A stretch of DNA of 64,000 nucleotides. Source: Janthinobacterium sp. UMAB-56 (GTDB lineage Bacteria > Pseudomonadota > Gammaproteobacteria > Burkholderiales > Burkholderiaceae_D). The notes beneath the pieces are model-generated. The model was given only the letters and a program-made list of their open reading frames with translations, was not told the DNA's origin and made no database searches. Shown piece by piece: positions 6,454-54,861 of this stretch. Within the stretch, counting starts at the first letter, position 1. Each line of letters starts with the position of its first letter. Position numbers and translations under genes: made by a program. The stretch spans positions 330,301 through 394,300 of the forward strand of contig NZ_LT607655.1 of assembly GCF_900095265.1 (NCBI RefSeq), written 5' to 3'.

Positions 6454-6496
6454 AGCGTGCGCCGAACAGCACCCGCAGACCGTACGCCTGCGCACA
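6454..6496 (-). promoter_or_regulatory. CRP-like palindrome with -10-like element (gene at 5851-6405)
   Basis: On the minus strand TGTGCG-CAGG-CGTACG (6496-6481) matches TGTNCG-N4-CGNACA at nine of ten fixed bases. Exactly 21 bases further is CACGCT, which keeps A at position 2 and T at position 6 of a -10 box; TATCGT lies 5 bases beyond. Weaker than the other copies. Confidence 0.5.
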
Positions 6497-13170: not shown

Positions 13171-13364
13171 TTGAATACTCCTTTTAAACGATTGCCGGTA
13201 GCCCGGATTGTTAAGTTCTTGGCAATTTTTATACCAGAACACCACGAATCCTGAGCGTCTGAGCACAGAATGCCCGTGTCAGCGGCTGCGGTCTGTGCGT
13301 TAACGAACATTAGAAGCAAGAAAGTGAGAAATATTGCCCTACTGAATTCTTTCTCTCGTGACAT
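13158..13364 (-). CDS. Possible small secreted protein or gene remnant
   Basis: A 68-aa frame: a convincing signal peptide (SRAIFLTFLLLMFVNAQTAAA) then a short tail with two close Cys (ILCSDAQDSWC) and a third near the end. It lies in an AT-richer patch, has no ribosome-binding site, and its end overlaps the regulator start. It may be the 5' remnant of a lost secreted-protein gene. Confidence 0.3.
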   Translation of the reverse strand: MSREKEFSRAIFLTFLLLMFVNAQTAAADTGILCSDAQDSWCSGIKIAKNLTIRATGNRLKGVFKCMQ

Positions 13365-23400: not shown

Positions 23401-26400
23401 TGCCCCACCTTCACATTCGCATTCGGCGACTCGCCAAACATCTCGGGCGAATACATGGCCTCGATGCGCGTGGCCGGCAGGCTGAAGTCGCCCGCATTGT
23501 TCAGGCGCACCGTGTATTCCACGCTCCAGTTACCCTTCGGCACGAAATCATAATAGGCGCGGAAGGCATCAAACGCCCGTTCCTCGAAGGTGGGCCAGAC
23601 CCAGCCCGTATTCTTTTCGCCCGCCGTCAACAGCTGCGAATCGCGCCCCAGTCCATTGCCCAGCACGCTGGCGCTGGCGGGAATCGGGTCGTCGACCACC
23701 ACCCAGCTCATGTCCGCCTGCGCCGACAAGTCCAGGCGCACGCGGTAGACATCGCCGCGTGACCACTGGCCCGTCGTTTTCTGTTCCACAGGCGTAATGG
23801 TTTTTTTGAGCGTGTAGCCGCTGGAAACGGGCGCCTTGAGCGGGATGGCCGCCAGGCTTTGCACGGTGGCCCAAGGCTTGCCCGTGCCGCTGTGCGCCAG
23901 GCCCAGGGTGTCCGTGCCCTTCGGCCACGCTTGCAGCACGGGGCCCACTTTCGCCGCGCCACTCCACACGAGCGCTTGCGTATCGCTGCCCAGTTTCACG
24001 GCGCTGGCGCCCGTCACGGGTGTGGACTCGAACTTGGCCGAGAACTTGGCGATGGCCAGGGTACCCCAGGCGTTGGCCACCGTGGTATCCCAGCGCCCTT
24101 TCTTCTGGCGCCCCATGCTGCCGCGCACCAGGCGACCGATGTCATCCTTCCACGCCGGGTTGTCCATCACGGCCAGCAGCAGCCGGTTGGCGTTGACGTC
24201 GCCGGAGACCATCAGCCACCACCAGTTATCCTTGCGTTCGGTGGAAAAGCCCATGGTCGTGCCCTGGAAGTTCAGGCGCGAGCGCAAAATCTGCTGCGCT
24301 TCGGCTTGCAGCGCATCGCGGCGCGCCAGGCTTGGCGTACGCTGCAGCAGCAGGCTCCAGTCGATGACGGCGGAAGTGGGCCACAGGTTCGGGCTGATGC
24401 TGATGCTTTCCAGCGCATCGGGCGGCACCTTGTTCGAACGCGACAGCGCTTCCAGCGCAGCGAGCTTGCGCACGGCCAGGTCGGTCGTGGCCAGCGCGGA
24501 ACGGCGCACGATACGGCCCTGCACGAAAGCCGTCAAGGCCTCTTCCATGCGGTTCTTCGTCTGTTCGGGAATCGCATAGCCCGCTTCCCGGCTTGCCGAC
24601 AGCACATACGCCGTCAGGCTGTCGCTGCCCTGCTCCATGATGGGGAAGTATTTCACCATGCCATCGCTGTCCAGATAGGCGGGCAGACTGGCTGCCAGCT
24701 TGTTCCACGCGTCCTGGTCTTGCAGGGCGATGGCTTTCGAGGTGTTTTGCTCGAAGCAGGTGTAGGGGTAGGCCGCCATGTATTCGCGCACGCCGGGCAG
24801 CTCGCCACCCAGTTTCGCGACAAAGCTGGTCTGGATGCCGCCCCGGCCCGGCAAGGCGCCGGCCGGCATTTGCACGGACATATTGATCGGCTTGTCGATC
24901 TGCAGCAAGGTGGCTTGATACGTACGCACGGGCGTGGCCTGACCCACTTTTTGCGTGATTTTGAGTTGATCGGAGGTGTTGCCAAGCCCGCTGCCCGCCT
25001 TGGCGCCAATGTCCCATACGACGGTTTGCGCGCCCAGTGGCACCTGGTAATCCCAGCCCACTTCGCGCGCCTCCCCCGCCGCCAACGTCAAGCTCTGGCG
25101 CGGCAGCGCCTTGCCTGCCGCCGTGGCATTGAGTTCCACGTTCAAGGATGCGGCCGAGGTGTTACGTACCGTAAAACCGGCACGCAACTGGTCGCCTTCG
25201 CGCACCAGGGTGGGCAAGCCCGACATCAGGATCAAGTCTTGCGAGCTGCGGATATCCGTGCTGCCCGTGCCAAACAATTCCTTGCCCGCGCTGGCGATGG
25301 CGACGATGCGGAACGCCGTCAGCGAGTCGTTCAGCGGCACTTGCACCGTGGCTTCCCCCTTGGCATCGAGCTTGACCGTGCCCTTCCAGAACAGCAGGGT
25401 GTCAAACAGCTCGCGGCTGGCGCCCTTGCCACCGCCACCGCCGGCCGGGAAAGCCTTGCGGCCGAAGTGGCGCTTGCCGATCACCTGCATCTGCGCCGTC
25501 GCCGTTTCCACCTGCAGGCTGCGCTGCGCCATCATGGTATCTAACAGCTTCCAGCTATCGTTGGGCATCAGTTCCAGCAGCCCCGTGTCGACGGCCGCCA
25601 GCGCCACTTCCGCACCGGCTGGCAAGGCTTTGCCATCGGCGCGGCGCACGCGCACGGAGACTTCCGCCTTGTCGCGCGTTTTATACACTTCCTTGTCGGA
25701 CACCACCATGACGTTCAATTCATGCGCCTGCCACCCCACATTCAGGGGCGCGATGCCCATCTTGTAGGCCGGCTTGCCCAGGTCCACCAGGGCCGTCGGC
25801 TGCACGCCGTCGACACGCCCACGCACGACAAACACGGACACATATACATTCGGTGCGTAGTTCGGTTTGACCGGAATATTCACCACCGGTTCCCGGCCGT
25901 TGAGCTGGCGCACATAGGTGTCGAGGATGCCTTCGCGCTCGACCGTGATCAGCGCCGTGCCCGAGCGGAAAGGCATGCGTACCTGCAAGCTCGCTTCCTG
26001 GCCCGGTTCATAGCGTTTCTTTTCAGGCAATACATCGATGCGGTCATTGTCGCTGACGTTGAACCACCAGTCGCCGCTGCCGGCCACCCAGGTTTCACGG
26101 TTGGCGACAGCGGCGTTGCCGCCGCCATCCTGCGTGCGGGCGCGCAAAATCAAATTGCCGCTGGCGGGCGCCTTCACGTCGCAGATCAACAGGCCCTTGG
26201 CGTCCGTCTGGCCCGAACAGGCGGGGCCCAGCTTGACGACTTCGCTGCTGTTTTCATACGCATAGAAGCCGCCGATGAGGCGGCGGCGGTGCGAATAACT
26301 GTTGCGCTGGAAAAAATCGACTGCCACAGCGGCGTTCGCCACGGGCTTGCCATTGGTGCCCAGCACGGCTACGGTGAACTTGAAGGCATCCTTGCTCAAG

Positions 26401-29378: not shown

Positions 29379-29448
29379 AGATGAGTTTTTTTCAACACCA
29401 GGGTATTCGTCGTGAATCTACAACACCATTGAGTTACAACAATGCTTT

Positions 29449-29491
29449 GTGCGCTAACGCACCGACCGCTTGAACCTGCAACCGTATTCTC
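29449..29491 (+). promoter_or_regulatory. CRP-like palindrome and -10 of the OmpA-type gene
   Basis: TGTGCG-CTAA-CGCACC (29449-29464), nine of ten fixed bases, then 21 bases, then TATTCT (29486-29491). Predicted start of transcription is near 29498, giving a 126-base leader. Confidence 0.6.
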
Positions 29492-29623: not shown

Positions 29624-30649
29624 GTGAATAATCTAAAAAAAATCGCCGTTGCCGCCGCAGTCCTGTGCTCCGCCCTCGGCGCACAGGCCCAGGAAATCAA
29701 TCCATCCTGGTATATTCAACCCAGCCTCAACGCACTCAAGCCAGATTCCGACTTCGCCACGGATAAAACCGGCTATGGCGCAGGCTTGCGTTTCGGTAAG
29801 CCTGTTTCCCAGGACTGGGATATCCAGTTGGGCACCACGTATGCCCGCTCCAAGGATGGCCAACAGCGCTACCAGCAAAATACGCTGGGCGTAGACGGCT
29901 TGTACATGTTCTCGCGCAAAGCCTTCCGCCCCTTCCTGCTGGTAGGCGCGGGCATGCAGCGCGACAAGGACACCAGCTTGGCCTTCGGCGAACGCAGCAA
30001 GAGCTCGCCATACGCCAGCGTGGGCCTGGGCTTCCAGTCCATGATCAATGATCAATTGTCGTTCCAGGCAGACGTGCGCAATGTACACGGCTTCCTGCGT
30101 GGCAACACCTTCGATCCGAGCAGCAAGGCCAACAACTATTACGTCACCGTGGGCCTGAACTTCGCATTCGACAAACCGCCTGCACCGCCGCCACCACCGC
30201 CACCGCCGCCAGTGCGCGAGGAAGTCGTCGTGGTCGTGCCGCCACCGCCACCACCGCCGCCGCCACGCTTTGAAAAAGTGACGATGTCGGCAACCGAACT
30301 GTTCGCCTTCGACAGTGCGAAACTGGGCCCGACACAGACCAAACTCGACGAGATCGCCCGCGTACTGAACGCCGCGCCGGACGTCAACAATGTCGTCATC
30401 AGTGGTTATGCCGACCGCATCGGTTCGGCCAAGTACAACCTGAAACTGTCGCAGCAGCGCGCTGACGCAGTCAAGGAATACCTGGTCGGCCATGGTGTCG
30501 CCGCCAACCGCCTGGCGGCCGAAGGCAAGGGTTCCACCAATCCTGTCGTCACCTGCGATAACAAGAAGCGGGCCGACCTGATCAAGTGCCTGGAACCAAA
30601 CCGCCGCGTCGAAGTGGAACAGATCACCATCGAACGCCGCGTACAGTAA
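29624..30649 (+). CDS. OmpA-family outer-membrane protein
   Basis: A 341-aa protein. The start is GTG 29624, set by GGGAG six bases upstream and by the signal peptide (VNNLKKIAVAAAVLCSALGAQAQ). Residues about 20-185 form an OmpA-like 8-stranded barrel. Then comes a remarkable linker: a run of nine prolines, REEVVVVV and a second run of nine prolines. The OmpA C-terminal peptidoglycan-binding domain follows (ELFAFDSAKL; SGYADRIGSAKYNLKLSQQRADAVKEYL) with a Cys pair (TCDN/IKCLEPN) near the end. It links outer membrane and wall. Confidence 0.92.
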   Translation: MNNLKKIAVAAAVLCSALGAQAQEINPSWYIQPSLNALKPDSDFATDKTGYGAGLRFGKPVSQDWDIQLGTTYARSKDGQQRYQQNTLGVDGLYMFSRKAFRPFLLVGAGMQRDKDTSLAFGERSKSSPYASVGLGFQSMINDQLSFQADVRNVHGFLRGNTFDPSSKANNYYVTVGLNFAFDKPPAPPPPPPPPPVREEVVVVVPPPPPPPPPRFEKVTMSATELFAFDSAKLGPTQTKLDEIARVLNAAPDVNNVVISGYADRIGSAKYNLKLSQQRADAVKEYLVGHGVAANRLAAEGKGSTNPVVTCDNKKRADLIKCLEPNRRVEVEQITIERRVQ

Positions 30650-32991: not shown

Positions 32992-33303
32992 TTACTTGAC
33001 GCGGATGTCGTTTTTCACCGACTTCACGCCCTTGACGCCACGGGTGATTTCGCCCGCTTTGGCGGCGTCAGCTGCCTGAGCAACGAAGCCGCTCAGCTGA
33101 ACCACGCCCTTGAAGGTTTCAACGTTGATTTCCGTCGATTTCAGGGTAGGCTCATTGAAGATGCTGGCTTTGACCTTGGTGGTGATGGCCGCGTCGTCGA
33201 TGTACTCGCCCGTGCCTTCTTTGGTTGGCGTGGAAGCGCAGCCTGCAACGGCAAACAGGGAAGCGACGAAAAGGCCAGTAGCGATAGATTTAGTGAATTT
33301 CAT
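32992..33303 (-). CDS. BON-domain lipoprotein
   Basis: A 103-aa lipoprotein (lipobox AVAGC, Cys22) with one BON domain (YIDDAAITTKVKASIFNEPTLKS...GVVQLSGFV). BON domains bind membranes and are found in OsmY-type stress proteins. Start 33303 has an AAGGAA site; the ATG 24 bases upstream does not. It follows 33386-33940 by 82 bases and may be read from the same promoter. Confidence 0.88.
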   Translation of the reverse strand: MKFTKSIATGLFVASLFAVAGCASTPTKEGTGEYIDDAAITTKVKASIFNEPTLKSTEINVETFKGVVQLSGFVAQAADAAKAGEITRGVKGVKSVKNDIRVK

Positions 33304-33385: not shown

Positions 33386-33940
33386 TCAGTAGCCAAACTG
33401 GGTTTTTGCAGCCTTGATACAGTCATCCTTGGCTGCGCCGGCTAATGCATCGCATTTTTCTGTCGCGACCTTGTACTCGGCTTTTCTTTTTGCTTCACGC
33501 GCATCGCTGCGCGCTTCGATGACCTTCTTGTCCGCCTTGGCATCGGCCAGGGCCGCCACCTTGGTGGACTTGGCCAGCTTGACGCAGACATCTTTGTCGT
33601 TGCCTGTCAGCGCATTGCAGCGCGCCAGGTCAACGTCGTAGTTGGCATCGGCAATCTTGTTGCGCGCCTTGGTGTAGGCACGCAGGGTATTCGTATATTG
33701 CGCCTGGGCCACTGCTTCATCGTAGGCGCGCACGGCCTTTGCTTCGGCAATGCAGACATCCTTCGGGTTGCCCGTGATTTTTTCGCATTCGGCATGTGCC
33801 AGCTTGTAGTTCAGGCCCGCCTGTTCATTGGCTGCCTTGTAAGCGGCTTTCGCTTCCGGCGTGGCAGCCACTGCCTGGCCGCCCCAGGCGGCGCACGCCA
33901 GGCTGACGACGATGGCGGTGAAAAGCTTTTTCTTGTTCAT
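33386..33940 (-). CDS. Secreted protein with three Cys-pair repeats
   Basis: A 184-aa protein with a signal peptide (INKKKLFTAIVV-type start, cleaved after AVA) and a helical mature part. The motif C-x4-(T/A)G-x4-(V/D)C recurs three times (CEKITGNPKDVC, CNALTGNDKDVC, CDALAGAAKDDC), separated by Lys/Ala-rich helix. Probably a periplasmic helical bundle with three small disulfide loops. No named family. Start 33940 has an AGGGAGAA site. Its promoter carries a perfect copy of the CRP-like palindrome. Confidence 0.8.
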   Translation of the reverse strand: MNKKKLFTAIVVSLACAAWGGQAVAATPEAKAAYKAANEQAGLNYKLAHAECEKITGNPKDVCIAEAKAVRAYDEAVAQAQYTNTLRAYTKARNKIADANYDVDLARCNALTGNDKDVCVKLAKSTKVAALADAKADKKVIEARSDAREAKRKAEYKVATEKCDALAGAAKDDCIKAAKTQFGY

Positions 33941-33987: not shown

Positions 33988-34030
33988 GTTTTACGTGGAT
34001 AGGCGCCACTCTTCTGTACGCTGCCGTACA
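33988..34030 (-). promoter_or_regulatory. CRP-like palindrome and -10 (33386-33940 gene)
   Basis: On the minus strand TGTACG-GCAG-CGTACA (34030-34015), all ten fixed bases, then 21 bases, then TAAAAC (33993-33988). Predicted 41-base leader. Confidence 0.7.
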
Positions 34031-34129: not shown

Positions 34130-34172
34130 CGTGCGGCAGCGTACAGACCGGGGACAGGGGCGTGACTAAGAT
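34130..34172 (+). promoter_or_regulatory. CRP-like palindrome and -10 (34206 operon)
   Basis: CGTGCG-GCAG-CGTACA (34130-34145), nine of ten fixed bases, then 21 bases, then TAAGAT (34167-34172). It is 100 bases from the divergent site at 34015. Predicted 27-base leader. Confidence 0.7.
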
Positions 34173-34205: not shown

Positions 34206-34652
34206 ATGAAAACCAATGCCACCTTGGCAGCACTGATGCTCGCCGCCACCGCCGTACTGAGCGGTTGTGCCACAGGTCCTTCACAGTCACAGCAGTATTA
34301 CCCGGCTAACCAGCCTGAGTCCGCCATGTACGGCACCGTCGACTCCATCCAGATCGTGCAGGGTGGCGGACAAACGAGCGGCGCCGGCGCCGTGGTCGGC
34401 GGCATCGCAGGCGCGCTGCTGGGCAATACCATCGGCTCGGGCGGCGGACGCACGGCCGCCACCGTGGCGGGCGCCGTCGCCGGCGGCGTCGTGGGCAACC
34501 AGGTGGAAGGCCGCAGGCAGCAGGCGCAGGCTTACCAGATCAGCGTGCGTCTCGATAACGGCGAATACCGCACCGTGGTGCAAGACACCGCGAACGACTT
34601 GCGCCCTGGCAACCGCGTGCGCGTCGTTGACGGCCGCGTCTACCGCTATTAA
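34206..34652 (+). CDS. Glycine-zipper lipoprotein (SlyB/17-kDa type)
   Basis: A 148-aa lipoprotein (lipobox VLSGC, Cys21). A glycine zipper (GAGAVVGGIAGALLGNTIG...AGAVAGGVVGNQVEG) spans a membrane as a hairpin, followed by a small beta domain (YQISVRLDNGEYRTVVQD, RPGNRVRVVDGRVYRY). SlyB-type proteins stabilise the outer membrane under stress. The start has AGGAGA. First gene of a unit with the 34719 gene. Confidence 0.85.
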   Translation: MKTNATLAALMLAATAVLSGCATGPSQSQQYYPANQPESAMYGTVDSIQIVQGGGQTSGAGAVVGGIAGALLGNTIGSGGGRTAATVAGAVAGGVVGNQVEGRRQQAQAYQISVRLDNGEYRTVVQDTANDLRPGNRVRVVDGRVYRY

Positions 34653-38308: not shown

Positions 38309-39208
38309 TTAACGGCGGGCGGGAATGGCCGTGTTATCTTCCGACAAGACGATTTCCACCCGGCGATTCAGCTGGCGATTCGCCGCGCTGTCATTGCCTG
38401 CGGCCGGATAGGCGGCGCCATAGCCTTTGGTGGCGATGCGATCACGGCTGATGCCTTGCTCCAGCAGCGCATTGCGCACGGATTCGGCGCGGCGCTGCGA
38501 CAATTGCAGGTTGTGCGCCGAACCGCCCGTGCTATCCGTGAAGCCTTCGATCAGCACGGTGCGCTGCGGGTTGTTTTTCAGCACATCGGCCAGCTTGCGC
38601 GCCGTATTCGCGCCATCGGCCGTCAAGTTCGCCTTGTCCGTGCCAAACAGCACATCGCCCAGCGTAATGACCATGCCGCGTTCGGTTTTCTTGGCGGCCA
38701 GGTCGGCCAGCTGCACTTCCAGCGCGGCGGCGCGGGCCGTGGCGTCACGGGCCGACGCTTCGGCCGCCTGCGCTTGGGCCTTGGCCGCTTCCGCATCCGC
38801 CTGCGCCGCCTGGGCGCGGGCCGTGGCCTGGTCCGCCTGCTGCGTGCGCGCATCGAGGCGCAACTGGTCGCGTTGCTTGCCGGCGTTGGCGATATCGGCC
38901 TCGGCTGCCTTTTGCTTGGCGACTTCTTGCGCCGTGGCGATCTTTTGCTTGGCCAGGTAGGCCAGCTTGTCGACTTTTTCGCTATCTTCCTGGCGCGTGG
39001 CGGCCGCGTTCGCCGCTTCCAGCGCAGCGCTCGCTTCACGGAATTCGCGTGGCGCATAGGTCGACACGATCGGGTTCGATTGCGCCGCCATGTAGTCGCC
39101 GCGCGTCTGGTCGAGCAGGCTGGTGGTGGTCGGTGCGGAACTGCAGGCGGCGACAAAAGCGGCCATGGCCAGCAGGCCTGGAAGCGTGGTGTAAGTAGCT
39201 TTTTTCAT
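38309..39208 (-). CDS. OmpA-domain lipoprotein with DUF4398 and coiled coil
   Basis: A 299-aa lipoprotein (lipobox VAAC, Cys22). DUF4398 helices (about 35-100), a long Ala/Gln/Glu coiled coil (about 100-175), then an OmpA peptidoglycan-binding domain (GDVLFGTDKANLT; EGFTDSTGGSAHNLQLSQRRAESVRNALL; NRRVEIVLSED). It tethers the outer membrane to the wall at a distance set by the coiled coil. It lies 25 bases after another DUF4398 gene. Confidence 0.92.
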   Translation of the reverse strand: MKKATYTTLPGLLAMAAFVAACSSAPTTTSLLDQTRGDYMAAQSNPIVSTYAPREFREASAALEAANAAATRQEDSEKVDKLAYLAKQKIATAQEVAKQKAAEADIANAGKQRDQLRLDARTQQADQATARAQAAQADAEAAKAQAQAAEASARDATARAAALEVQLADLAAKKTERGMVITLGDVLFGTDKANLTADGANTARKLADVLKNNPQRTVLIEGFTDSTGGSAHNLQLSQRRAESVRNALLEQGISRDRIATKGYGAAYPAAGNDSAANRQLNRRVEIVLSEDNTAIPARR

Positions 39209-39233
39209 GATGGAATCCTGTTCTTCTTGTTGG

Positions 39234-39638
39234 TTATTGTTTCGGGGCTTGCTGGTTGGCACGCTCGAGTTCTACGCGCATGACGCGGATGCTCTCGTTA
39301 ATTTCATCGGCGGCGCTGGTGGCCTTGGCCGAGTTGGCCTTGCTTTGCGCCAGCTTGGCATCGGCTTGCGCCTGGTCTGCCAGGTCGCGCGCCATCTTGT
39401 AATCGTGGTCTTTCAGGGCCTGGTTGGCCATGCGCATTTTTTCGCGGGCCGAACGCATTTCATCGGGAGCCAGGTCGGCGGCGCCGGCGCTGGCGGCGTT
39501 ATCGACGGCGGCGCGCGAGACGGCAACATCGGCCGTGGCTGGCGTTTTCAGGCTGGAACAGCCGGTCATGAAGACAACGGCGGTGGCGCAGGCGGCCAAG
39601 GCGGCCAGCGGGGACATCTTGAAATCTCGGTTTGTCAT
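39234..39638 (-). CDS. DUF4398 lipoprotein
   Basis: A 134-aa lipoprotein (lipobox MTGC, Cys27) with a DUF4398 helical domain (VSRAAVDNAASAGAADLAPDEMRSAREKM...ALKDHDYKMARDLADQA). First gene of the likely operon 39638 to 37684. It has a CCAGGAG site. A perfect copy of the CRP-like palindrome lies 108-123 bases upstream. Confidence 0.88.
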   Translation of the reverse strand: MTNRDFKMSPLAALAACATAVVFMTGCSSLKTPATADVAVSRAAVDNAASAGAADLAPDEMRSAREKMRMANQALKDHDYKMARDLADQAQADAKLAQSKANSAKATSAADEINESIRVMRVELERANQQAPKQ

Positions 39639-39718: not shown

Positions 39719-39761
39719 GTTATAGGCTCCGGCTCCCTGCATATCTGTTCGGTGCCGCACA
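39719..39761 (-). promoter_or_regulatory. CRP-like palindrome and -10 (DUF4398/OmpA operon)
   Basis: On the minus strand TGTGCG-GCAC-CGAACA (39761-39746), all ten fixed bases, then 21 bases, then TATAAC (39724-39719). Predicted 74-base leader. A weaker repeat (TGTAAA-CGTG-AGTACA, 39671-39686) lies in that leader. Confidence 0.72.
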
Positions 39762-39898: not shown

Positions 39899-41935
39899 AT
39901 GCAACTGTCACGCCGCCAGAAAATCACCCTCGCCAGCGCCGCCGTCCTCATCGCCGTGCCCGTCACGGCCGCCGTCGTCCTGCTCAATATGGACTGGAAC
40001 CACACCAAGCCCTGGCTCAACGCCCGCGCCAGCGAAGCCCTGGGCCGGCCGTTCGCCATCGCGGGCGACCTGTCGCTGACGTGGCAGCAGCCAAGGACTG
40101 CGGGACCGCGAGGCTGGCGCGACTACCTGCCCTGGCCGCACCTGCAGGCAAATGACGTGCGCCTGGGCAACCCGAGCGCCATGGCGGTAGTAGGTGAGCA
40201 AGCGCCGCTGGCCAACGTGGGCCAGCTGGCGTTTTCGCTCAATCCCCTGGCTTTGCTGGAGAAGAAAATCATCATCCCGCAATTGCGCTTCGACACGCCG
40301 CAGGTGCGCTTGCTGCGCAACCAGGACGGCAAGAACAACTGGACCTTCGAGCACCAAGACCAGTCATCGCCGTGGCAGCTGGAACTGCAAAGCGTGGTCT
40401 TCAGCAAGGGCACCGTGACGCTGGACGATGGCGTCACCAAAACGGCGATGCGCGCCGATATCGACACCATCGCGGACGATGCGCGCTACGGCATCGCGTG
40501 GAAACTGTCTGGCACTTACCGCGGCGAACCCGTCAAAGGAGGCGGCAAGGCCGGTGGCGTGCTGTCGCTGCAGCGGCAAGGCACGCCCTTCCCCATCCAG
40601 GCCGAGATGCGCGCGAGCGGCAGCAGCGTGGCCATCGAAGGCACGCTGACGCGCCCGGCGGACCTGGCCGCACTCGACGTGCGCCTGAAAATCTCGGGCC
40701 CCAGCATGGCGCGCCTGTATCCATTGACGGGCGTGCTGCTGCCGGAAACGCCGCACTTCAGCACGGAAGGCCATTTGACGGGCACCCTGGCGCCGCGCGG
40801 CGGCGAATGGGTCTACGACCAGTTCAGCGGCAAGGTAGGCTCCAGCGATGTCGCAGGCAAGCTGGCCTTTTCAGCCAGCACGCCGCGCAAGCGCCTGACG
40901 GGCGAAGTGCACTCGCGCCTGCTGCAATTTTCCGACCTGGGTCCGCTGGTGGGCGCCGATTCCAGCGCCAGCAAGAAGGAACGGGGCGTGCCATCGACGC
41001 AGCCGGTCGGCCGCGTGCTGCCGGTGGAAACGTTCAAGACGGAGCGCTGGGCCAGCCTGGACGCCGATGTGCGCTACACGGCCGATAAAATCACGCGCGA
41101 CGCCGAGTTACCGATCAGCAAACTCGACACGCATGTGGTGCTGACGGACGGCGTGCTGTCGCTGACGCCGCTCAACTTCAATGTGGCGGGTGGCACCCTG
41201 ACGTCGCAGATCAGGCTCGACGGCAGCGGCAAGGTCATCGCCAACGGCATCGCCGCCGAACTCAAGGCCAGCGCCCGCCATCTGCACATCAAGCAATTGT
41301 TTCCCCGCCTGCCGGCCCTGCAAGCGAGCGTGGGGGAAATCAATGGCGACGCTTCGCTGTCTGCCACGGGAAACTCCGTCGCCAGTCTGCTGGGCAGTTC
41401 CAACGGCGAAGTGCGCGCACTGATCAACCGGGGCAGCATCAGCAAGCTGTTGCTGGAAGAAATGGGCTTGAATATCGGCAGCATCGTGCTGACCAAGCTG
41501 GTGGGCGACAAGCAGGTCAAGCTGAACTGCATGGCCGCCGATTTCGTCGTCACCAAGGGATTGATGCGCACGCGCCAGTTCCTCGTCGACACGGATGATG
41601 CCGTGCTGCATGTCGACGGCACGGTAAACCTGGGCAATGAGCAACTGGACCTGACCCTGCGGCCGGACAGCAAGGGCTTGCGCATCTTTTCGCTGCGCTC
41701 CCCCTTGTACGTGCAGGGTACTTTCAGCAAGCCCGACGTGAGCGTCGACAAGGGCGTGCTGGCCCTGCGCGCCGGCGGCGCCGCGGCGCTGGCCGTGGTG
41801 GCGCCCGTGGCCGCCCTGCTGCCGCTGGTGAATACCGGCCCCGGCGAGGACAGCGCATGCGCAGCCCTGCTGGCCCAGGCGCGCGTGAAGCCGGTGGCGC
41901 CGAAACCGGGCAAGACACCGCGCAAAAGCCGCTGA
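39899..41935 (+). CDS. AsmA-family protein
   Basis: A 678-aa protein with an N-terminal membrane anchor (ITLASAAVLIAVPVTAAVVLL) followed by the AsmA start NWNHTKPWLNARASEALGRPFAIAGDLSL. The rest is a long beta-groove repeat, ending with the AsmA_2 domain (INRGSISKLLLEEMGLNIGS). AsmA-like proteins bridge the periplasm and carry phospholipids to the outer membrane. Divergent from the DUF4398 operon. The frame ends with a basic tail. Confidence 0.88.
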   Translation: MQLSRRQKITLASAAVLIAVPVTAAVVLLNMDWNHTKPWLNARASEALGRPFAIAGDLSLTWQQPRTAGPRGWRDYLPWPHLQANDVRLGNPSAMAVVGEQAPLANVGQLAFSLNPLALLEKKIIIPQLRFDTPQVRLLRNQDGKNNWTFEHQDQSSPWQLELQSVVFSKGTVTLDDGVTKTAMRADIDTIADDARYGIAWKLSGTYRGEPVKGGGKAGGVLSLQRQGTPFPIQAEMRASGSSVAIEGTLTRPADLAALDVRLKISGPSMARLYPLTGVLLPETPHFSTEGHLTGTLAPRGGEWVYDQFSGKVGSSDVAGKLAFSASTPRKRLTGEVHSRLLQFSDLGPLVGADSSASKKERGVPSTQPVGRVLPVETFKTERWASLDADVRYTADKITRDAELPISKLDTHVVLTDGVLSLTPLNFNVAGGTLTSQIRLDGSGKVIANGIAAELKASARHLHIKQLFPRLPALQASVGEINGDASLSATGNSVASLLGSSNGEVRALINRGSISKLLLEEMGLNIGSIVLTKLVGDKQVKLNCMAADFVVTKGLMRTRQFLVDTDDAVLHVDGTVNLGNEQLDLTLRPDSKGLRIFSLRSPLYVQGTFSKPDVSVDKGVLALRAGGAAALAVVAPVAALLPLVNTGPGEDSACAALLAQARVKPVAPKPGKTPRKSR

Positions 41936-41977: not shown

Positions 41978-42020
41978 TGTGCGTTGCCGAACAGACCCTG
42001 CCTTGTCACAATCCTATTCT
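41978..42020 (+). promoter_or_regulatory. CRP-like palindrome and -10 (42111 gene)
   Basis: TGTGCG-TTGC-CGAACA (41978-41993), all ten fixed bases, then 21 bases, then TATTCT (42015-42020). Predicted 84-base leader. Confidence 0.75.
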
Positions 42021-42110: not shown

Positions 42111-42329
42111 ATGCAAATCATTAAAAAAATCGCCGCTACCACTTCCGTTGCCGCCCTGCTGCTGAGCTTGACGGCTTGCGCCAATATGTCCGGCCAGGAT
42201 AAAAACACGGCCATCGGCGCAGGTGTCGGCGCCGTTGCCGGCTCCGTGCTGACGGGCGGCAGCGCCATCGGCGCAGTCGGCGGCGCCGCCGTCGGCGGCG
42301 TGATCGGCAACCAGGTCAAGCCTAAGTAA
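42111..42329 (+). CDS. Small glycine-zipper lipoprotein
   Basis: A 72-aa lipoprotein (lipobox LTAC, Cys23) with a glycine-zipper hairpin (AIGAGVGAVAGSVLTGGSAIGAVGGAAVGGVIGNQV), the OsmB-like pattern of osmotically induced outer-membrane lipoproteins. An ATAGGAGA site sets the start. Flanked by a strong promoter palindrome and terminator, so monocistronic. Confidence 0.85.
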   Translation: MQIIKKIAATTSVAALLLSLTACANMSGQDKNTAIGAGVGAVAGSVLTGGSAIGAVGGAAVGGVIGNQVKPK

Positions 42330-42409: not shown

Positions 42410-43186
42410 TCAGACGAAGACGTTGGCCATGCCGATGGCGCCGCTGTCCTTGACCAGCGCATAACAGCGGCAGGAAACGGCTTCCAGCCCCGCCGAATCG
42501 AGGATCTCGATATTGCCGCGGCTGTAGGTGATGAGTTTTTGCTGTTGCAGCGCGCTGGCCGCCTTGGTCACGCCGACCCGCCGCACACCGAGGGTGTGGG
42601 CGAGGAATTCATGCGTCAGGTGAAATTTTTCGGACTGCAGACGGTCGCGCGTGATCAGCAGCGAACGGGCCAGACGCGCCTCGAGCACGTGGAAGCGGCT
42701 GCATACGGCAATCTGGATGGCTTGCGCCAGCAAGGTGTCCGTGTAGCGGTACAGCAATCGCTGCAGGGACTCAAGCTGGGCAAACTCGGCGCAGAAATCG
42801 GCCCGCGCGATGCGGCTGGCAGTACCGGAACGCTGCACCACGGCACGCACTTGCGCCAGATCATGGCCCAGCGCGACGGAAGCGCCCAGGACGCCTTCGC
42901 GGCCGACGGAGCCCACTTCCAGGGTCATCCGGCCTTCCGCCACGGCCAGCAGCGAGATCAGGCAATCGCCGGGGAAATAGATGTGGCCGATAGGCTGACC
43001 CGGTTCGTACAGTACCTCGCCCACCTCGACCGTGACGCTGTCGAACAGCGCGGTCAGGTGCCGCAAGTCGTGTTCGGGCAGGCTGGCCAGCAAGCGGTTG
43101 CCGGCGTGCAGCGCGCCCACGGGCGGCCCCAGGCCAGATCGGCCTGCGTCGCGGGACAGGGTCATGCTGGCGTTCGTTGGTGGCAT
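42410..43186 (-). CDS. Crp/Fnr-family transcriptional regulator
   Basis: A 258-aa regulator. The cyclic-nucleotide-type beta-roll spans about 30-140 (EVLYEPGQPIGHIYFPGDCLISLLAVAEGR; GSVGREGVLG). The DNA-binding domain spans about 170-230, with recognition helix near 202-213 in GVRRVGVTKAASALQQ and a C-terminal SCRCYALVKD motif. There is no FNR N-terminal Cys cluster. This is the uncharacterised RRVGVT-type group common in Burkholderiales and rhizobia. At the positions where CRP contacts DNA (Arg180, Glu181, Arg185) it has Arg, Val and Lys, so its site should differ from TGTGA. I infer that it binds TGTNCG-N4-CGNACA and activates nearby envelope genes. A copy of that site lies before its own gene. 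Confidence 0.9.
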   Translation of the reverse strand: MPPTNASMTLSRDAGRSGLGPPVGALHAGNRLLASLPEHDLRHLTALFDSVTVEVGEVLYEPGQPIGHIYFPGDCLISLLAVAEGRMTLEVGSVGREGVLGASVALGHDLAQVRAVVQRSGTASRIARADFCAEFAQLESLQRLLYRYTDTLLAQAIQIAVCSRFHVLEARLARSLLITRDRLQSEKFHLTHEFLAHTLGVRRVGVTKAASALQQQKLITYSRGNIEILDSAGLEAVSCRCYALVKDSGAIGMANVFV

Positions 43187-43229
43187 TGCTTTTCCTTGGT
43201 GTCGTTACAACTCGACATAATTTTTACTT

Positions 43230-43272
43230 AGCCTACGGTGCAGTACCGGCCCTGTATGTACGGTGACGCACG
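43230..43272 (-). promoter_or_regulatory. CRP-like palindrome in front of the Crp/Fnr gene (shared, divergent)
   Basis: TGTACG-GTGA-CGCACG (43257-43272), nine of ten fixed bases. Reading left, 21 bases from the palindrome lies TAGGCT (43235-43230), giving a 36-base leader for the regulator. Reading right, 21 bases away lies CACACT (43294-43299) for the gene at 43362, a weaker -10. Confidence 0.65.
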
Positions 43273-43361
43273 GAAGCGGAGCAAGCGGCACAGCACACTG
43301 GCAACACACACGCAGAACACGCATTACCCTTTTCACTATTTAAAAAAACAAGGAGCCTTCC

Positions 43362-44003
43362 ATGACCACCACCAAATCCCTCCATCCGCTGGTGCTTGCC
43401 GCCGCCGTCGCCGTCTTGCTGTTTTGCGGCGTCGGCACGGCTGCCCTGATGGGCTGGCTGCCTTCGTCCCATGGCGATAGCCAGCCACTGGCGGCCAGCG
43501 CCTCGGCCGAACAAATGGCCAGCCTGCAGGCGAACCAGCCGCCGGCCGGCGCCCAGCCGCTGGCCGCCCTGCCACCGCAGCCACAGCAACAAGCACAGCA
43601 GCAGCCCGTACGACAGCCGCAACCGCAACCACAGCAACAATATGCGGCAGCCCCGGCGCCGCAGGTGTGCGGCAATTGCGGCGTGATCGAAGCCATCCAT
43701 GAAGTCAATACGCGCGCCGAAGGCAGCGGCGTGGGCGCGGCCGGCGGCGCCGTCGTCGGCGGCTTGCTGGGCAACCAGGTCGGTGGCGGCCACGGCAAGC
43801 AACTGGCCACCGTGCTGGGCGCCGTCGGCGGCGCCGTGGCCGGCAACCAGATCGAAGGCAACGTGCGCGCCACGCGCAGCTACAACATCGTCGTGCGCCT
43901 CGATAACGGCAAGACGCGCACCGTGCACCAGAGCGCCGCGCCGAACTGGCGCCAGGGCGACCGCGTGCGCGTCGTCAACGGCGTCTTGCGCGCCATGGGA
44001 TAG
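43362..44003 (+). CDS. Glycine-zipper 2TM-domain membrane protein
   Basis: A 213-aa protein. An N-terminal anchor (PLVLAAAVAVLLFCGVGTAALMGWL) is followed by a Gln/Pro-rich linker (about 55-90, PQPQQQAQQQPVRQPQPQPQQQ), a CGNCG pair, a glycine zipper (GVGAAGGAVVGGLLGNQVGGGHG...GAVGGAVAGNQ) and the same beta domain as the 34206 lipoprotein (YNIVVRLDNGKTRTVHQ; GDRVRVVNGVL). Paralogous to 34206 but inner-membrane anchored. Divergent from the Crp/Fnr gene. Confidence 0.85.
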   Translation: MTTTKSLHPLVLAAAVAVLLFCGVGTAALMGWLPSSHGDSQPLAASASAEQMASLQANQPPAGAQPLAALPPQPQQQAQQQPVRQPQPQPQQQYAAAPAPQVCGNCGVIEAIHEVNTRAEGSGVGAAGGAVVGGLLGNQVGGGHGKQLATVLGAVGGAVAGNQIEGNVRATRSYNIVVRLDNGKTRTVHQSAAPNWRQGDRVRVVNGVLRAMG

Positions 44004-44050
44004 GCGAAGCGCGGCGGCGCCGCTGCCGTGATTAGTTGCAAATAAAATAC

Positions 44051-44080
44051 ACGCCCGGCCTGTCCGGGCGTTTTCTTTTT
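44051..44080 (+). terminator. Terminator of the 43362 gene
   Basis: ACGCCCGG (44051-44058) pairs with CCGGGCGT (44064-44071), then TTTCTTTTT. Confidence 0.85.
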
Positions 44081-44085
44081 GATCA

Positions 44086-44128
44086 TGTTCGTTGGCGTAC
44101 AGATGCGCTGAACATGAAGCGAGATGAT
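44086..44128 (+). promoter_or_regulatory. CRP-like palindrome (44169 gene)
   Basis: TGTTCG-TTGG-CGTACA (44086-44101), all ten fixed bases. At 21 bases lies GATGAT and at 23 bases TGATAT; either could be the -10. Predicted leader about 34 bases. Confidence 0.65.
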
Positions 44129-44168
44129 ATCTCCAGGAAGTTTCAACGGATGTCTTCAAGGAGATGTG

Positions 44169-44411
44169 ATGGAAAGCGACATGGCAGGCGGCAACAGGAT
44201 CTGGCTGGGCTTTATTGGTGGCGGCATCCTGGCCACCGCGCTGGGCTTTTGCGCGCTGGACCTGGCGCCTGAAACAAGCGCGCCCGTTTTCGGCGTCATG
44301 CTGCTGCTGACGGGCGGCATGGTCAGTTGCCTGGCGGGCGCCGTTGGCATGGCCGGCATGCTGGCGTGGTTACCGGGCATGGCTGATGAACACGCCGACC
44401 GCCCCCAATAG
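44169..44411 (+). CDS. Small two-segment membrane protein
   Basis: An 80-aa protein with two Gly-rich hydrophobic segments (IWLGFIGGGILATALGFCALDL and VFGVMLLLTGGMVSCLAGAVGMAGMLAWL). The start is fixed by AAGGAG six bases upstream; the longer frame has none. No named family. Behind a perfect CRP-like palindrome. Confidence 0.75.
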   Translation: MESDMAGGNRIWLGFIGGGILATALGFCALDLAPETSAPVFGVMLLLTGGMVSCLAGAVGMAGMLAWLPGMADEHADRPQ

Positions 44412-44421
44412 TTGAGCCTTG

Positions 44422-44464
44422 TGTACGACAGCGTACAGAACGCAAGGGAAACAAAGTAGACACT
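44422..44464 (+). promoter_or_regulatory. CRP-like palindrome (44591 gene)
   Basis: TGTACG-ACAG-CGTACA (44422-44437), all ten fixed bases and fully symmetric in the half-sites. GACACT lies 21 bases further and TAGACA 19 bases further; neither is a strong -10. Predicted leader about 120 bases. Confidence 0.6.
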
Positions 44465-44590: not shown

Positions 44591-44737
44591 ATGCTGTATA
44601 CAATCGCCGTCGTACTCATTATTCTTTGGCTGCTGGGCCTGGTAACTTCCTATACCATCGGCGGCTTCATCCATATCCTGCTGGTGGTGGCTGTCATCAT
44701 GATCCTGTTGCGCCTGATCAGCGGGCGCGGCTTATAG
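44591..44737 (+). CDS. lmo0937-type small membrane protein
   Basis: A 48-aa protein, two hydrophobic segments (YTIAVVLIILWLLGLVTSYTIGGF and HILLVVAVIMILLRLI), closely fitting the lmo0937 family. AGGAGGA precedes the ATG. Too short for most gene finders. Such proteins are stress-induced in many bacteria, role unknown. Confidence 0.88.
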   Translation: MLYTIAVVLIILWLLGLVTSYTIGGFIHILLVVAVIMILLRLISGRGL

Positions 44738-44905: not shown

Positions 44906-45586
44906 ATGAAAGCATTGAAAAACGGCCCTGGCGCCAAATCCCTGATCGGCATGCTGGTCATCGCATTGGCCGCTAGCGGCTGCGCGGATATGTCCGCCAC
45001 ACAACGTGGCACGGCCACGGGCGCCGGCGTCGGCGCAGGCCTGGGCGCCTTGATCGGCGGCACCACCGGTGGTGGCAGCAGCGGCCGCACGGCCGGCGGC
45101 GCCCTGATAGGCGCGGCAGCGGGCGCCGTCATCGGCAATATCTGGTCGAACCGCATGGAAAACCAGAAGCGCGCCATGGAACAAGCGACACAGGGTACTG
45201 GTGTGCAAGTGACGCAGACGGCCGATAACCGCCTGAAAATGGAAATCCCCAGCGATATTTCCTTCGACACCAACCGCGCCGACATCAAGGGCAATTTCCG
45301 CCCGATTCTCGACCGCTTTGCCGCCACGCTGAATGAAAACCCGAACACCACGGTCAGCATCATCGGCCACACGGACAGCACGGGCAGCGCTTCGATCAAC
45401 GAACCGCTGTCGGTGGAACGCGCGGCCCACACGCGCGACTACCTGTCCATGCGCGGCGTCTCGCCGACGCGCGTCGTCACGGAAGGCCGCGGCGCCCGCG
45501 AGCCGATCGCCTCGAACGCCGATGCCTCGGGACGCGCACGCAATCGCCGCGTGGAAATCTACGTAGCCGAAATGGCGCCACGCTAA
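44906..45586 (+). CDS. OmpA-family lipoprotein with glycine zipper
   Basis: A 226-aa lipoprotein (lipobox AASGC, Cys26), a glycine zipper (GTATGAGVGAGLGALIGGTTGGG...ALIGAAAGAVIGN) and an OmpA domain (SDISFDTNRADIKGNF; GHTDSTGSASINEPLSVERAAHTRDYL; GRARNRRVEIYV). This is the YiaD-type layout. AAGGAG sets the start. Unlike its neighbours I find no good copy of the palindrome before it. Confidence 0.92.
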   Translation: MKALKNGPGAKSLIGMLVIALAASGCADMSATQRGTATGAGVGAGLGALIGGTTGGGSSGRTAGGALIGAAAGAVIGNIWSNRMENQKRAMEQATQGTGVQVTQTADNRLKMEIPSDISFDTNRADIKGNFRPILDRFAATLNENPNTTVSIIGHTDSTGSASINEPLSVERAAHTRDYLSMRGVSPTRVVTEGRGAREPIASNADASGRARNRRVEIYVAEMAPR

Positions 45587-52432: not shown

Positions 52433-52749
52433 GATAAATATCTCGGTGACGTGAATGAAACTTCCCGGTATTGATCAGGACATGCGCTGTGTGTCTGATC
52501 TTAGTGTTACCTTATCCTCGCTTTTTGTCCAGCCATCCGTGCGTTGTACAACAGAAACATCAGCTTAGCCCCAGGAAAAGAGTCGCACACTGACAACACG
52601 CAAGAGTGGTGAGGATTGCGGCACTTGCGGCAAAATGGCGTTCATTGCAACTTATGCCGTGAAGCAATGTTCGGTGCCGAACGTTGCGCGATTTGACACA
52701 GGCGGTACACTACTGGTTTTACCGACAGCGGCTCGCCCGTTTTTTCTGC
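52433..52749. other. Divergent intergenic region, porin / recombinase-like gene
   Basis: About 320 bases. It contains GTTGTACAAC (a 10-bp palindrome near 52548) on the porin side and the CRP-like promoter on the other side. Nothing else recognised. Confidence 0.5.
52668..52711 (+). promoter_or_regulatory. CRP-like palindrome and -10 (recombinase-like/PLD operon)
   Basis: TGTTCG-GTGC-CGAACG (52668-52683), nine of ten fixed bases, then 22 bases, then TACACT (52706-52711). Predicted start near 52718, which places the TTG at 52684 outside the transcript and supports ATG 52750. Confidence 0.55.
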
Positions 52750-54861
52750 ATGCTAGCTATCCTCGAACGCATTGACCCCAACTCCAGCAATATCGACTTG
52801 CTGGTGGAATTATTCAACTCACTGCGTCCCAAGCGCTCCCACGACAGCGCCACAGCGATCGCCAACGTGCGCACCCTGCGCCAGCTTCTCAAAGGTAACC
52901 CCGCGCAAGCGCGCGCCCTGCACGAATACGTGCTGCGCGTGCTGGCCGCGCGCCGCCACGCCAGCCTCTACACGGACATCGGCGTGCTGTCGAACAATGG
53001 CTTTTTCACGGAATTGAAACGCCGCATCGCCTACCGCATGCTGCCGCCCGCGCTGGGCGACGAGTACCTGAACGACGCGCTCGACCAGGTGCTGTACCTG
53101 AAGACCGATTATGTGTGGATCAGCAATGTGCCCGCCACGGAATGGCTGGAACTGTTCGACGTGCTCACCAGCGACGACATCGAACTGGCCGTCGGCGATG
53201 GCAATATCATGCTGCCGGGCATGCTCGACGCCATCCGCACCCTGTCCTACCGCGTCTGCGCCATGGGCCTGGAACCGGAATTGACGCGTTTCCACAATGA
53301 AATCGAAGTGTTCCAGTCGCCGTTCATGGTGCAGAACACGGAAGTGAATGCCTACCTGGACGCCTACACGAATTTACTGCACGGCAATATCGAGCACATC
53401 GAGGACGCACGCCATTTGCTGGTGATGCTGGACCAGTGCGACGCCGTCATCGCCAAGATCCGCAAGAAGGCGCTGTACCAGGGCACCAGCATTCCCCTCA
53501 CGTATTTACTGGTGGCACTGGCGCAAAGCATCGACCGCCTGCGCAAGCTGCTGTTCCTCGTCGACACGAGCGGCGAGCTGCCTGCATCAAGCACGGTGGA
53601 CATCGCCGCCATCACGGTCGACGCCACGCAAGACTTGCTGCACCCGCGGCCCGTCAGCCGCCGCCGCGCAGGCGCCGTGGGCCTGGCGCTGGAACTGATA
53701 CGCGCGCATAACCACAAGTACAAGGTCAGCGACCTGTTTTCCGACAATATCAACTTGCTGGCGCGCAATGTGACGGAAAACGCCAGCCGCACGGGCGAAC
53801 ACTACATCGCGGAAAGCCGGCGCGAGATGGGTGCCATGTTCCTCTCGTCCGCAGGCGCGGGCGTGATCATCGGCTTCATGGCGCTGTTCAAGATATTGAT
53901 GTCGTATTTGCGCTCGGCACCGCTGGTCGAAGCCTTCATGTTCAGCATGAATTACTCGATCGGTTTCATGTTCATCCACTTGCTGCATTTCACGGTGGCC
54001 ACCAAGCAGCCTGCCATGACGGCGTCGCGCATCGCCGCCGGCCTGCACAGCAAGGATGGACGGAATATCGACCTCGACAGCATGGCTGAACTGATCAACA
54101 AGGTCTTCCGCACGCAAAACATGGCCGTGCTGGGCAACCTGGCGACAGCCATTCCCACGGCCTGGCTGATCGCGCTGGGCTACAAGGCGATTACCGGGCA
54201 CAACCTGGTGACGCCGGAAAAGGCCATGCACTTGCTGCACGATATAGACCCCATCGGCAGCCCCGCCATCTTCTATGCCATGATCGCCGGCGTGTGCCTG
54301 TTCGTGGCCGGCCTGATTTCGGGCTACTATGACAACCAGGCCCTGTACACGCGCTGGGCGCAGCGCATCGCGCAAATGCGCGGCCTGGGCCGAGTGATCG
54401 GCCAGGAGCGGCTGCAGCGGCTGGGGCTGTATTTGGAAAATAACCTGGGCGGTCTGATGGGTAACTTCTATTTCGGTATCCTGCTCGGTTCCATCGGCAC
54501 CCTGGGTTTCCTGATCGGCTTGCCCATCGATATCCGCCACATCACCTTCTCGGCCGCCAACTTCGCGACCGCCCTGGTGGGTCTCGACCACAATATGAGC
54601 TGGCAACTGGCCGTCAAATCGCTGTCGGGCATCTTCGCCATCGGCACGGCCAACCTGCTGGTCAGTTTTGGTTTGGCCCTGTGGGTGGCCCTGCGTTCGC
54701 GCCAGGTGCGCTTCAAGCACGGCATGCAATTGTTAAAGATTCTGGGCAAGCGCTTCCTGAAGTCGCCCATCGTCTTCTTCTTCGGCTCGAAAAACCCGCC
54801 CCCTCTGGCACTGGTAGACGAGTCGGCAAACCTGTCACTGACGACCAAGGCTCAAAAATGA
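52750..54861 (+). CDS. pfam10136 'site-specific recombinase' family, probably a membrane protein
   Basis: A 703-aa protein. The family is often labelled site-specific recombinase, but no tyrosine- or serine-recombinase catalytic motif is visible. The first half (1-380) is soluble and helical. The second half has about six hydrophobic segments (SAGAGVIIGFMALFKILMSYL, AFMFSMNYSIGFMFIHLLHF, ATAIPTAWLIALGY, FYAMIAGVCLFVAGLISGYY, GNFYFGILLGSIGTLGFLIGLP, GIFAIGTANLLVSFGLALWVAL), so it is an inner-membrane protein. It overlaps the PLD-type gene by four bases, which suggests a membrane-lipid role. Confidence 0.85.
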   Translation: MLAILERIDPNSSNIDLLVELFNSLRPKRSHDSATAIANVRTLRQLLKGNPAQARALHEYVLRVLAARRHASLYTDIGVLSNNGFFTELKRRIAYRMLPPALGDEYLNDALDQVLYLKTDYVWISNVPATEWLELFDVLTSDDIELAVGDGNIMLPGMLDAIRTLSYRVCAMGLEPELTRFHNEIEVFQSPFMVQNTEVNAYLDAYTNLLHGNIEHIEDARHLLVMLDQCDAVIAKIRKKALYQGTSIPLTYLLVALAQSIDRLRKLLFLVDTSGELPASSTVDIAAITVDATQDLLHPRPVSRRRAGAVGLALELIRAHNHKYKVSDLFSDNINLLARNVTENASRTGEHYIAESRREMGAMFLSSAGAGVIIGFMALFKILMSYLRSAPLVEAFMFSMNYSIGFMFIHLLHFTVATKQPAMTASRIAAGLHSKDGRNIDLDSMAELINKVFRTQNMAVLGNLATAIPTAWLIALGYKAITGHNLVTPEKAMHLLHDIDPIGSPAIFYAMIAGVCLFVAGLISGYYDNQALYTRWAQRIAQMRGLGRVIGQERLQRLGLYLENNLGGLMGNFYFGILLGSIGTLGFLIGLPIDIRHITFSAANFATALVGLDHNMSWQLAVKSLSGIFAIGTANLLVSFGLALWVALRSRQVRFKHGMQLLKILGKRFLKSPIVFFFGSKNPPPLALVDESANLSLTTKAQK

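Follow-up and report, generated by a model that had tools for sequence, protein, structure and literature searches.

Few kinds of bacterial regulator are commoner than the Crp/Fnr proteins, and the consensus sequences of two of them, CRP and FNR, are well known. That of CRP, TGTGA-N6-TCACA, has a TGT...ACA geometry; GlxR also reads CRP-type sites, and FNR, for which class II activation is known, holds its 4Fe-4S cluster in an N-terminal cysteine cluster. NtcA, a cyanobacterial Crp-family activator, uses a site GTAN8TAC centred about 41.5 nucleotides upstream (PMC3898017), many Crp/Fnr subgroups are uncharacterised, and RedB of Rhodobacter capsulatus, a member of one such previously uncharacterised subgroup, has a non-palindromic AT-rich 12-mer as its reported motif (PMC9603854). 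Here we describe a 258-residue Crp/Fnr regulator encoded at 42410-43186 on the reverse strand of a 64,000-nucleotide stretch of Janthinobacterium sp. UMAB-56 (NZ_LT607655.1, positions 330,301 to 394,300; hereafter the window, C5:330301-394300 of a 6.1-Mb assembly and 1.05% of the genome), together with a 20-bp palindrome, T-N-TGTDCG-N4-CGHACA-N-A, that lies before its gene and before a number of its neighbours. We consider it very probable, from sequence comparison, that this protein is an activator that reads the palindrome at position -41.5 and switches on a mostly local envelope and stress regulon as well as itself. No published description of the motif or of the regulator was found in the literature covered, although this coverage was partial and phrase matching for Crp/Fnr weak, so that the negative is weak evidence.

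The protein can be placed in the superfamily. HTH_Crp_2 (PF13545) matches it with an E value of 1.4e-13 (51 bits, cut-off 27), the best Foldseek matches of its AlphaFold model are Crp/Fnr proteins (best E 3e-13), and the model itself, of mean pLDDT 69 and pTM 0.54, predicts a Crp-type fold with an N-terminal beta-roll, a dimer helix and a C-terminal helix-turn-helix (HTH). The cAMP-pocket signature is not to be seen by eye in the protein, and a Pfam search at E 1e-3 did not list the cNMP-binding domain (PF00027). The likeness to CRP and GlxR lies in the predicted fold, in an Arg at the Arg180-equivalent position (by alignment to GlxR), in the class II spacing and in the TGT...ACA geometry that the window motif shares with the CRP consensus; unlike CRP, the regulator, whose recognition helix is GVRRVGVTKAAS, has Val at the Glu181-equivalent position. 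A preliminary description of the locus had argued from both Glu181 and Arg185 that the regulator should read other bases than CRP does; the exchange of Glu181 for Val is the more telling of the two, whereas the argument from Arg185 carries little weight, Lys being found at that position in GlxR too. NtcA is alike in belonging to the Crp family, in the geometry of the predicted site at about -41.5 and, in the alignment, in the Val at the Glu181-equivalent position, and TGTA-type sites of the window motif also fit GTAN8TAC. However, the window motif has a fixed CG at half-site positions 5 and 6 and an A at base 4 in only 62% of orthologue half-sites, the organisms and targets are others, and the similarity of the proteins is remote (profile E 4.5e-10). 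With FNR the regulator shares superfamily membership; its first Cys lies at residue 75, and its conserved ones are residues 162, 239 and 241. RedB and the window regulator, compared here by description only, both come from uncharacterised subgroups, and their motifs differ. Since the protein set of PMC12531629 required both PF00027 and PF13545, and PF00027 was not listed for the window protein, regulators of this kind may be absent from it.

The 16-bp core of the palindrome, TGTNCG-N4-CGNACA, occurs exactly six times in the window (at 13294, 34015, 39746, 41978, 44086 and 44422), when 300 dinucleotide shuffles contain 0.09 copies on average and never more than 2, a result that bears out the preliminary description, which had come upon the motif after the fact. 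That description named ten copies, all of which are present (the one given as 29449 begins at 29448), and took five of them to be exact; it missed the sixth exact copy, at 13294, as well as a one-mismatch copy at 19439, and the total with at most one mismatch is thus 12, whereas 100 shuffles have 2.99 on average and 8 at most. Eleven of the 12 are intergenic (binomial P 1e-9 given a non-coding fraction of 12.5%, with gene calls from a simple home-made codon-usage caller), and the copy at 19439 is the single one inside a called gene. The ten named copies do for the most part lie upstream of genes as had been claimed; the doubtful one is the one-mismatch copy at 6481-6496, which has one outer base only and CACGCT (2/6) as its best -10-like hexamer and is probably due to chance. 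Over the whole genome, 18 exact copies of the core are found against 7 of a backwards control pattern, and 6 of the 18 fall within the window (P 2e-8). Among the other 12, 8 fall in called genes and a single one, C7:94521, has the outer T/A pair together with a hexamer carrying A at position 2 and T at position 6 (A2/T6; TAGTCT, 3/6) at promoter spacing, and for these reasons the exact copies outside the window are mostly background. The 20-bp form has 5 exact copies in the genome, 4 of them in the window, and 23 copies with at most one mismatch (9 in the window) against 6 for the control; given those 6 control matches, several of the outlying one-mismatch sites must be chance. The motif itself is real.

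The palindrome recurs around orthologues of the regulator. In 68 orthologue loci retrieved with the regulator protein (1.32 Mb in total), ten of them from Janthinobacterium with regulators 93-98% identical to ours (L016-L025), the exact core occurs 158 times, when 29 letter-permuted palindromes have a mean of 2.4 and a maximum of 15, and it ranks second among all 1024 half-sites of the same shape, after a GC-rich one. All but three of these copies (155/158) are outside called genes, and most precede orthologues of the window genes that start at 33386 or 32992 (with 34326), 44591, 42111, 44169 and 52750. Close to the start of the regulator itself, 67 of the 68 loci (all but L076) retain a site with no more than one mismatch, which in 58 reads exactly TCCGTGCGTCA(C/G)CGTACATA, and the fixed mismatch suggests a tuned, weaker site. 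Within the half-site, the CG at positions 5 and 6 is fixed and position 4 is variable, the latter being most often G (41%) near distant relatives of the regulator. The outer T, which was not part of the search pattern, is present in 87% of cases in the orthologue loci and in 84% at 35 sites near distant relatives; the 16-bp form first proposed stands as the core of what is really a 20-bp element.

A generic promoter scan was uninformative (1 promoter-like site against 1.2 in shuffles), and a fixed-offset test was used instead, in which a strict -10-like hexamer has A at position 2, T at position 6 and at least 4 of the 6 letters of TATAAT, and the offset is counted from the 16-bp core. Of 304 flanks from the orthologue loci, 87 have such a hexamer at offset 21, the next most frequent offset being 9 with 24 and all others having 12 or fewer. 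A further 68 sites came for the most part from other genera and classes, G018 being the one genome among them with a close orthologue; there, 18 of 136 flanks have the hexamer at offset 21 and at most 7 have it at any other. Four genomes (G021, G107, G154 and G212, the last being that of orthologue locus L045) give an A2/T6 hexamer at offset 21 in 11 of 16 sites, never on both sides, which amounts to 11 of 32 flanks against at most 7 elsewhere. Because the hexamer starts 21 nucleotides beyond the core, the predicted sites centre at -41.5, the position of a class II activator, and from this spacing it follows that the regulator most likely activates these promoters, its own included. The candidate operator of the regulator, at 43257-43272, carries one fixed mismatch and has promoter-like hexamers on both sides, TAGGCT (3/6, 43230-43235, reverse strand) for the regulator and CACACT (3/6, 43294-43299, forward strand) for a divergent gene, and the stretch 43230-43299 as a whole, with one operator and -10-like hexamers equally spaced about it, has the form of a symmetric divergent class II arrangement. 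Of 66 orthologue loci, 65 have TAnnCT (3 or 4 of 6) at offset 21 on the regulator's side, and 65 have an A2/T6 hexamer, most often GAAAAT, CACACT or GACAAT, on the side of the divergent gene; as hexamers are kept so regularly on both sides, one dimer could serve two promoters at this site.

The association extends beyond the locus itself. When a regulator-positive genome is defined as one with a close regulator at E 1e-60 or better, the 20-bp motif is present in all 114 regulator-positive genomes among 294 of the family, against 72 of the 180 others (Fisher 6e-32, uncorrected for kinship), and at the level of the genus co-occurrence has a Mann-Whitney P of 0.004. A scan of 299 genomes of the phylum, in which the best 8 candidates per genome were scored and some relatives may be missed, found the motif 43 times outside the family and the control 15 times; 26 of the 43 are in 42 genomes with a listed relative and 17 in the other 254, and 9 lie upstream of one of 81 relatives, no more than 350 bp from its aligned start, where 0.001 would be expected. 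Of 41 relatives with the helix GVRR[VE]G, 18 are preceded by a site with one mismatch or none (8 exact; L141, among the 18, is an orthologue of 68% identity), against none of 7 with GVRRES and none of 5 with HRP or QRP (18/41 against 0/12, Fisher P 0.004), and five control palindromes occur 0-2 times in any helix class. In wider flanks, 20 family-level relatives (two of them paralogues from our genome) have 23 copies, the next permutation having 6, and the motif is first of the 1024 half-sites; the 20 best relatives from the class and phylum have 7 copies, the next permutation having 3. Two known operators were tried in three sets of 20 homologue flanks: the CRP site was found in 0, 0 and 1 copies and the FNR consensus in 2, 3 and 2, neither of them outstanding. 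The same operator appears to be used in several bacterial classes, and we define here a GVRR[VE]G subfamily by its helix, a CxCY tail and a TGTNCG site in its own promoter, all three of which the window regulator has.

The earlier inference that the regulator recognises the motif, with its targets clustered around it, is therefore strongly supported by four comparative lines: the motif in orthologous loci, its co-occurrence with the regulator, the sites in promoters of distant relatives and the fixed geometry at -41.5. We envisage a Crp/Fnr-superfamily activator of a widespread subfamily, with GVRR[VE]G[VI]T as the typical recognition helix, whose dimer would read T-N-TGTDCG-N4-CGHACA-N-A and, centred at -41.5, would recruit RNA polymerase in the class II manner. 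It would thus activate a mostly local regulon, between about 29.4 and 52.7 kb, of DUF4398/OmpA, OsmB-like, glycine-zipper, BON, lmo0937-type and other genes, and, from a single operator flanked on either side by promoter-like elements, itself and its divergent neighbour. Binding, activation, stress role and signal are in each case inferred for this regulator from sequence.

A number of observations weigh against this account. No more than 4 of the 12 sites in the window satisfy the strict hexamer rule: the hexamers of 44422 and 43257 match at 3 of 6 letters only (as does that of 13294), those of 34015 and 39746 have no final T, and 52668 has TACACT at offset 22. The compared genomes are related to each other, so that the P values overstate independence. 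The 72 genomes that carry the motif without a close orthologue must also be accounted for; all 16 of those examined have a relative of 34-47% identity at E 1e-30 or better (as do 2 of 4 examined genomes with neither motif nor close orthologue, at the same E value), and the orthologue is therefore not the sole reader. Nor is the helix rule clean, since sites also precede relatives whose helices are different (GVRR[APS] 3/11, the rest 6/16, including one wrong-frame row), and 23 of the 41 relatives with GVRR[VE]G have none. In the class and phylum flanks the motif is only eighth of the 1024 half-sites, behind GC-rich ones, and in the 20 farthest loci (one of them a paralogue from our genome) it is not enriched, with 2 copies against 3 for the best permutation. 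Last, a copy with at most two mismatches lies upstream of a paralogue, that on contig C6, in 20 of 30 loci, and paralogues could share operators.

This last point leads to the alternative that survives best, namely that the motif is the shared operator of several paralogues in one cell, such that the window regulator is one of a network of readers and the C6 protein and others bind some of the sites. The regulator had been called an orphan, which is misleading: its own genome encodes nine HTH_Crp_2 proteins above the cut-off, among them three paralogues with related helices (C6, 41% identity; C1, 42%; C18, 38%), one of which has a related operator. Before the C6 gene stands TCCGTTCGCTGGCGAACAGA, followed at offset 21 by TATAGT, and 16 of the 30 C6-paralogue loci (L259-L288, near position 1478) have CGTTCG-N4-CGAACG, also given as TCCGTTCG-N4-CGAACGGA. 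As an observation in its own right, this palindromic promoter element differs from the main motif by one base per half. However, the flanks of the three paralogues (L208, L209, L228), about 9 kb each way, contain no exact core, and two of the three have the GVRRES-type helix for which no upstream site was seen among the seven relatives in other genomes. Given the element before the C6 gene, overlapping or diverged specificity is likely, and a common operator read by several of them is a possibility that we hold in some doubt.

That the regulator represses these promoters is unlikely. RNA polymerase might also be obstructed at a Crp-type site that covers the -35 region, but more than one set of sites shows the spacing of class II activated promoters, and repressor sites are usually more widely spread. 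We regard it as highly improbable that an unrelated factor binds the palindrome and that the Crp/Fnr gene is a mere target or bystander: a site before the regulator would be expected of any target of such a factor, but the sites recur before members of the subfamily in other classes, the palindrome has CRP geometry, and base 4 is mainly A in the orthologue loci and G near relatives that mostly have Glu at residue 204 of the helix (Glu in 44 of 80 distant rows, Val in 6; Val in the window protein). A pairing of Glu with G, as in CRP, and of Val with A, as in NtcA, would be chemically reasonable, with the reservation that phylogeny confounds the comparison. An artefact of chance or composition, which a CG-rich motif chosen after the fact in a GC-rich genome might raise, and to which the mostly background look of the 12 exact outside copies would lend itself, is ruled out for practical purposes by the shuffles, the permuted palindromes and the conservation in orthologues.

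With activation at -41.5 by the window regulator as the favoured explanation, the candidate sites and their genes may be considered in turn. Divergent from the regulator is a glycine-zipper 2TM protein (43362-44003, forward strand, PF05433), a probable target. Beyond it, also on the forward strand, the exact candidate operator at 44086-44101, with GATGAT at 44123-44128, would serve a small protein (44169-44411; the longer frame 44124-44411 has no Pfam match) and precedes the same gene in 19 loci, and the exact operator at 44422-44437, with GACACT (3/6) at 44459-44464, would serve an lmo0937-family membrane protein (DUF5670; 44591-44737, NF033488 above cut-off) and is placed in this way in 24 loci. 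The YiaD-type glycine-zipper/OmpA lipoprotein that follows (44906-45586, forward strand, NF053611 above cut-off) may be an operon member or a target; 8 orthologue-locus sites are assigned to this gene, 2 of them inside the called gene. On the other side of the regulator, the exact candidate operator at 41978-41993 (forward strand, TATTCT at 42015-42020, 20 loci) has as its predicted target an OsmB-like glycine-zipper lipoprotein (42111-42329, forward strand; NF007830 E 4.5e-24, 84.2 bits, below the cut-off of 98). The exact candidate operator at 39746-39761 (reverse strand) lies between a DUF4398 gene and an AsmA-like gene, and its TATAAC (5/6, no T at position 6) at 39724-39719 faces the reverse-strand genes, which are a DUF4398 protein (39234-39638), a probable target, and a DUF4398/OmpA protein (38309-39208; family search with frame 38309-39262), a probable operon member that resembles LptF below that model's cut-off. 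The divergent AsmA-family protein (39899-41935, forward strand) is a possible target.

Farther out, two candidate operators stand between the genes at 33386 and 34326: the exact one at 34015-34030 (reverse strand), whose TAAAAC (4/6, no T at position 6) at 33993-33988 faces the predicted target 33386-33940 (reverse strand, 184 residues, no Pfam match), and a one-mismatch one at 34130-34145 (forward strand), whose TAAGAT at 34167-34172 faces the predicted target 34326-34652, a glycine-zipper 2TM protein on the forward strand that is followed by DUF3309. The BON-domain protein at 32992-33303 (reverse strand) adjoins the site in other genera, and sites between orthologues number 22 for the 33386/34326 pair and 26 for the 32992/34326 pair. 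The one-mismatch candidate at 29448-29463 (forward strand, TATTCT at 29485-29490) lies upstream of an OmpA/beta-barrel gene (29624-30649). That at 52668-52683 (forward strand), whose outer bases are not T/A, lies upstream of 52750-54861 (PF10136), whose orthologues elsewhere are preceded by exact sites, with 27 sites assigned to them. The exact copy at 13294-13309 (reverse strand), a possible site, lies between 12550-13170 (reverse strand, 206 residues, no Pfam match), which its CATTCT (3/6) at 13272-13267 faces, and 13530. A bacterial alpha-2-macroglobulin of 1917 residues, at 23397-29150, adjoins the block of predicted targets.

The predicted targets are thus OsmB-like, glycine-zipper, BON, DUF3309, DUF4398/OmpA, lmo0937-type and PF10136 proteins and some without a Pfam match, a mixture that resembles general and envelope stress regulons, and these gene names alone suggest an envelope or general-stress role. 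One-mismatch sites outside the window adjoin a CsbD gene (C14:36007), a PRC-barrel gene (C2:431148) and a hemerythrin gene (C22:9797). Ten genes downstream of a site and offset-21 hexamer in other genomes comprise 4 without a Pfam match and 6 with one (DUF5670, as in lmo0937, TonB_C, Ysc84, SpoIIAA-like, Big_5 and Collagen). At C4:246405 (L107), a one-mismatch 20-bp site with a perfect TATAAT at offset 21 precedes an RsbRD-STAS gene, and a link to a stressosome-type partner switch is possible.

As to the signal, the regulator has cysteines only at residues 75, 132, 162, 239 and 241, the last two in its C-terminal CxCY. C162, C239 and C241 are all present in 142 of 150 aligned rows (149 distinct homologues, a good many of which are orthologues, plus the window protein); one of the other 8 is a wrong-frame row, and the remaining 7 have all lost C239, 6 of them together with C162 or C241, a partly coupled loss. 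H166 is invariant among 20 aligned members. These conserved residues sit outside the FNR cluster positions. The confidence of the AlphaFold model is below 50 at residues 157-164 and 242-258, so distances between the cysteines are not measurable, and it is as a hypothesis that we suggest a thiol or metal signal acting through C162, C239 and C241.

Whether or not the signal is of this kind, a single Crp/Fnr subgroup is here given a candidate operator, a promoter geometry and a candidate regulon together, in a form that can be checked by sequence search in other genomes with a GVRR[VE]G protein, and the shift at base 4 from members with Val to those with Glu lends itself to a clean test of specificity. 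In the betaproteobacteria, lmo0937-type, glycine-zipper, DUF4398 and DUF3309 genes would gain a candidate controller. More speculatively, and with correspondingly little assurance, this widespread uncharacterised subfamily with an operator code of its own might comprise master activators of general and envelope stress, for example in the Oxalobacteraceae, that sense thiols, redox state or metals through C162, C239 and C241, which would tie the hinge helix to the C-terminal tail at a position unlike that of the FNR sensor.

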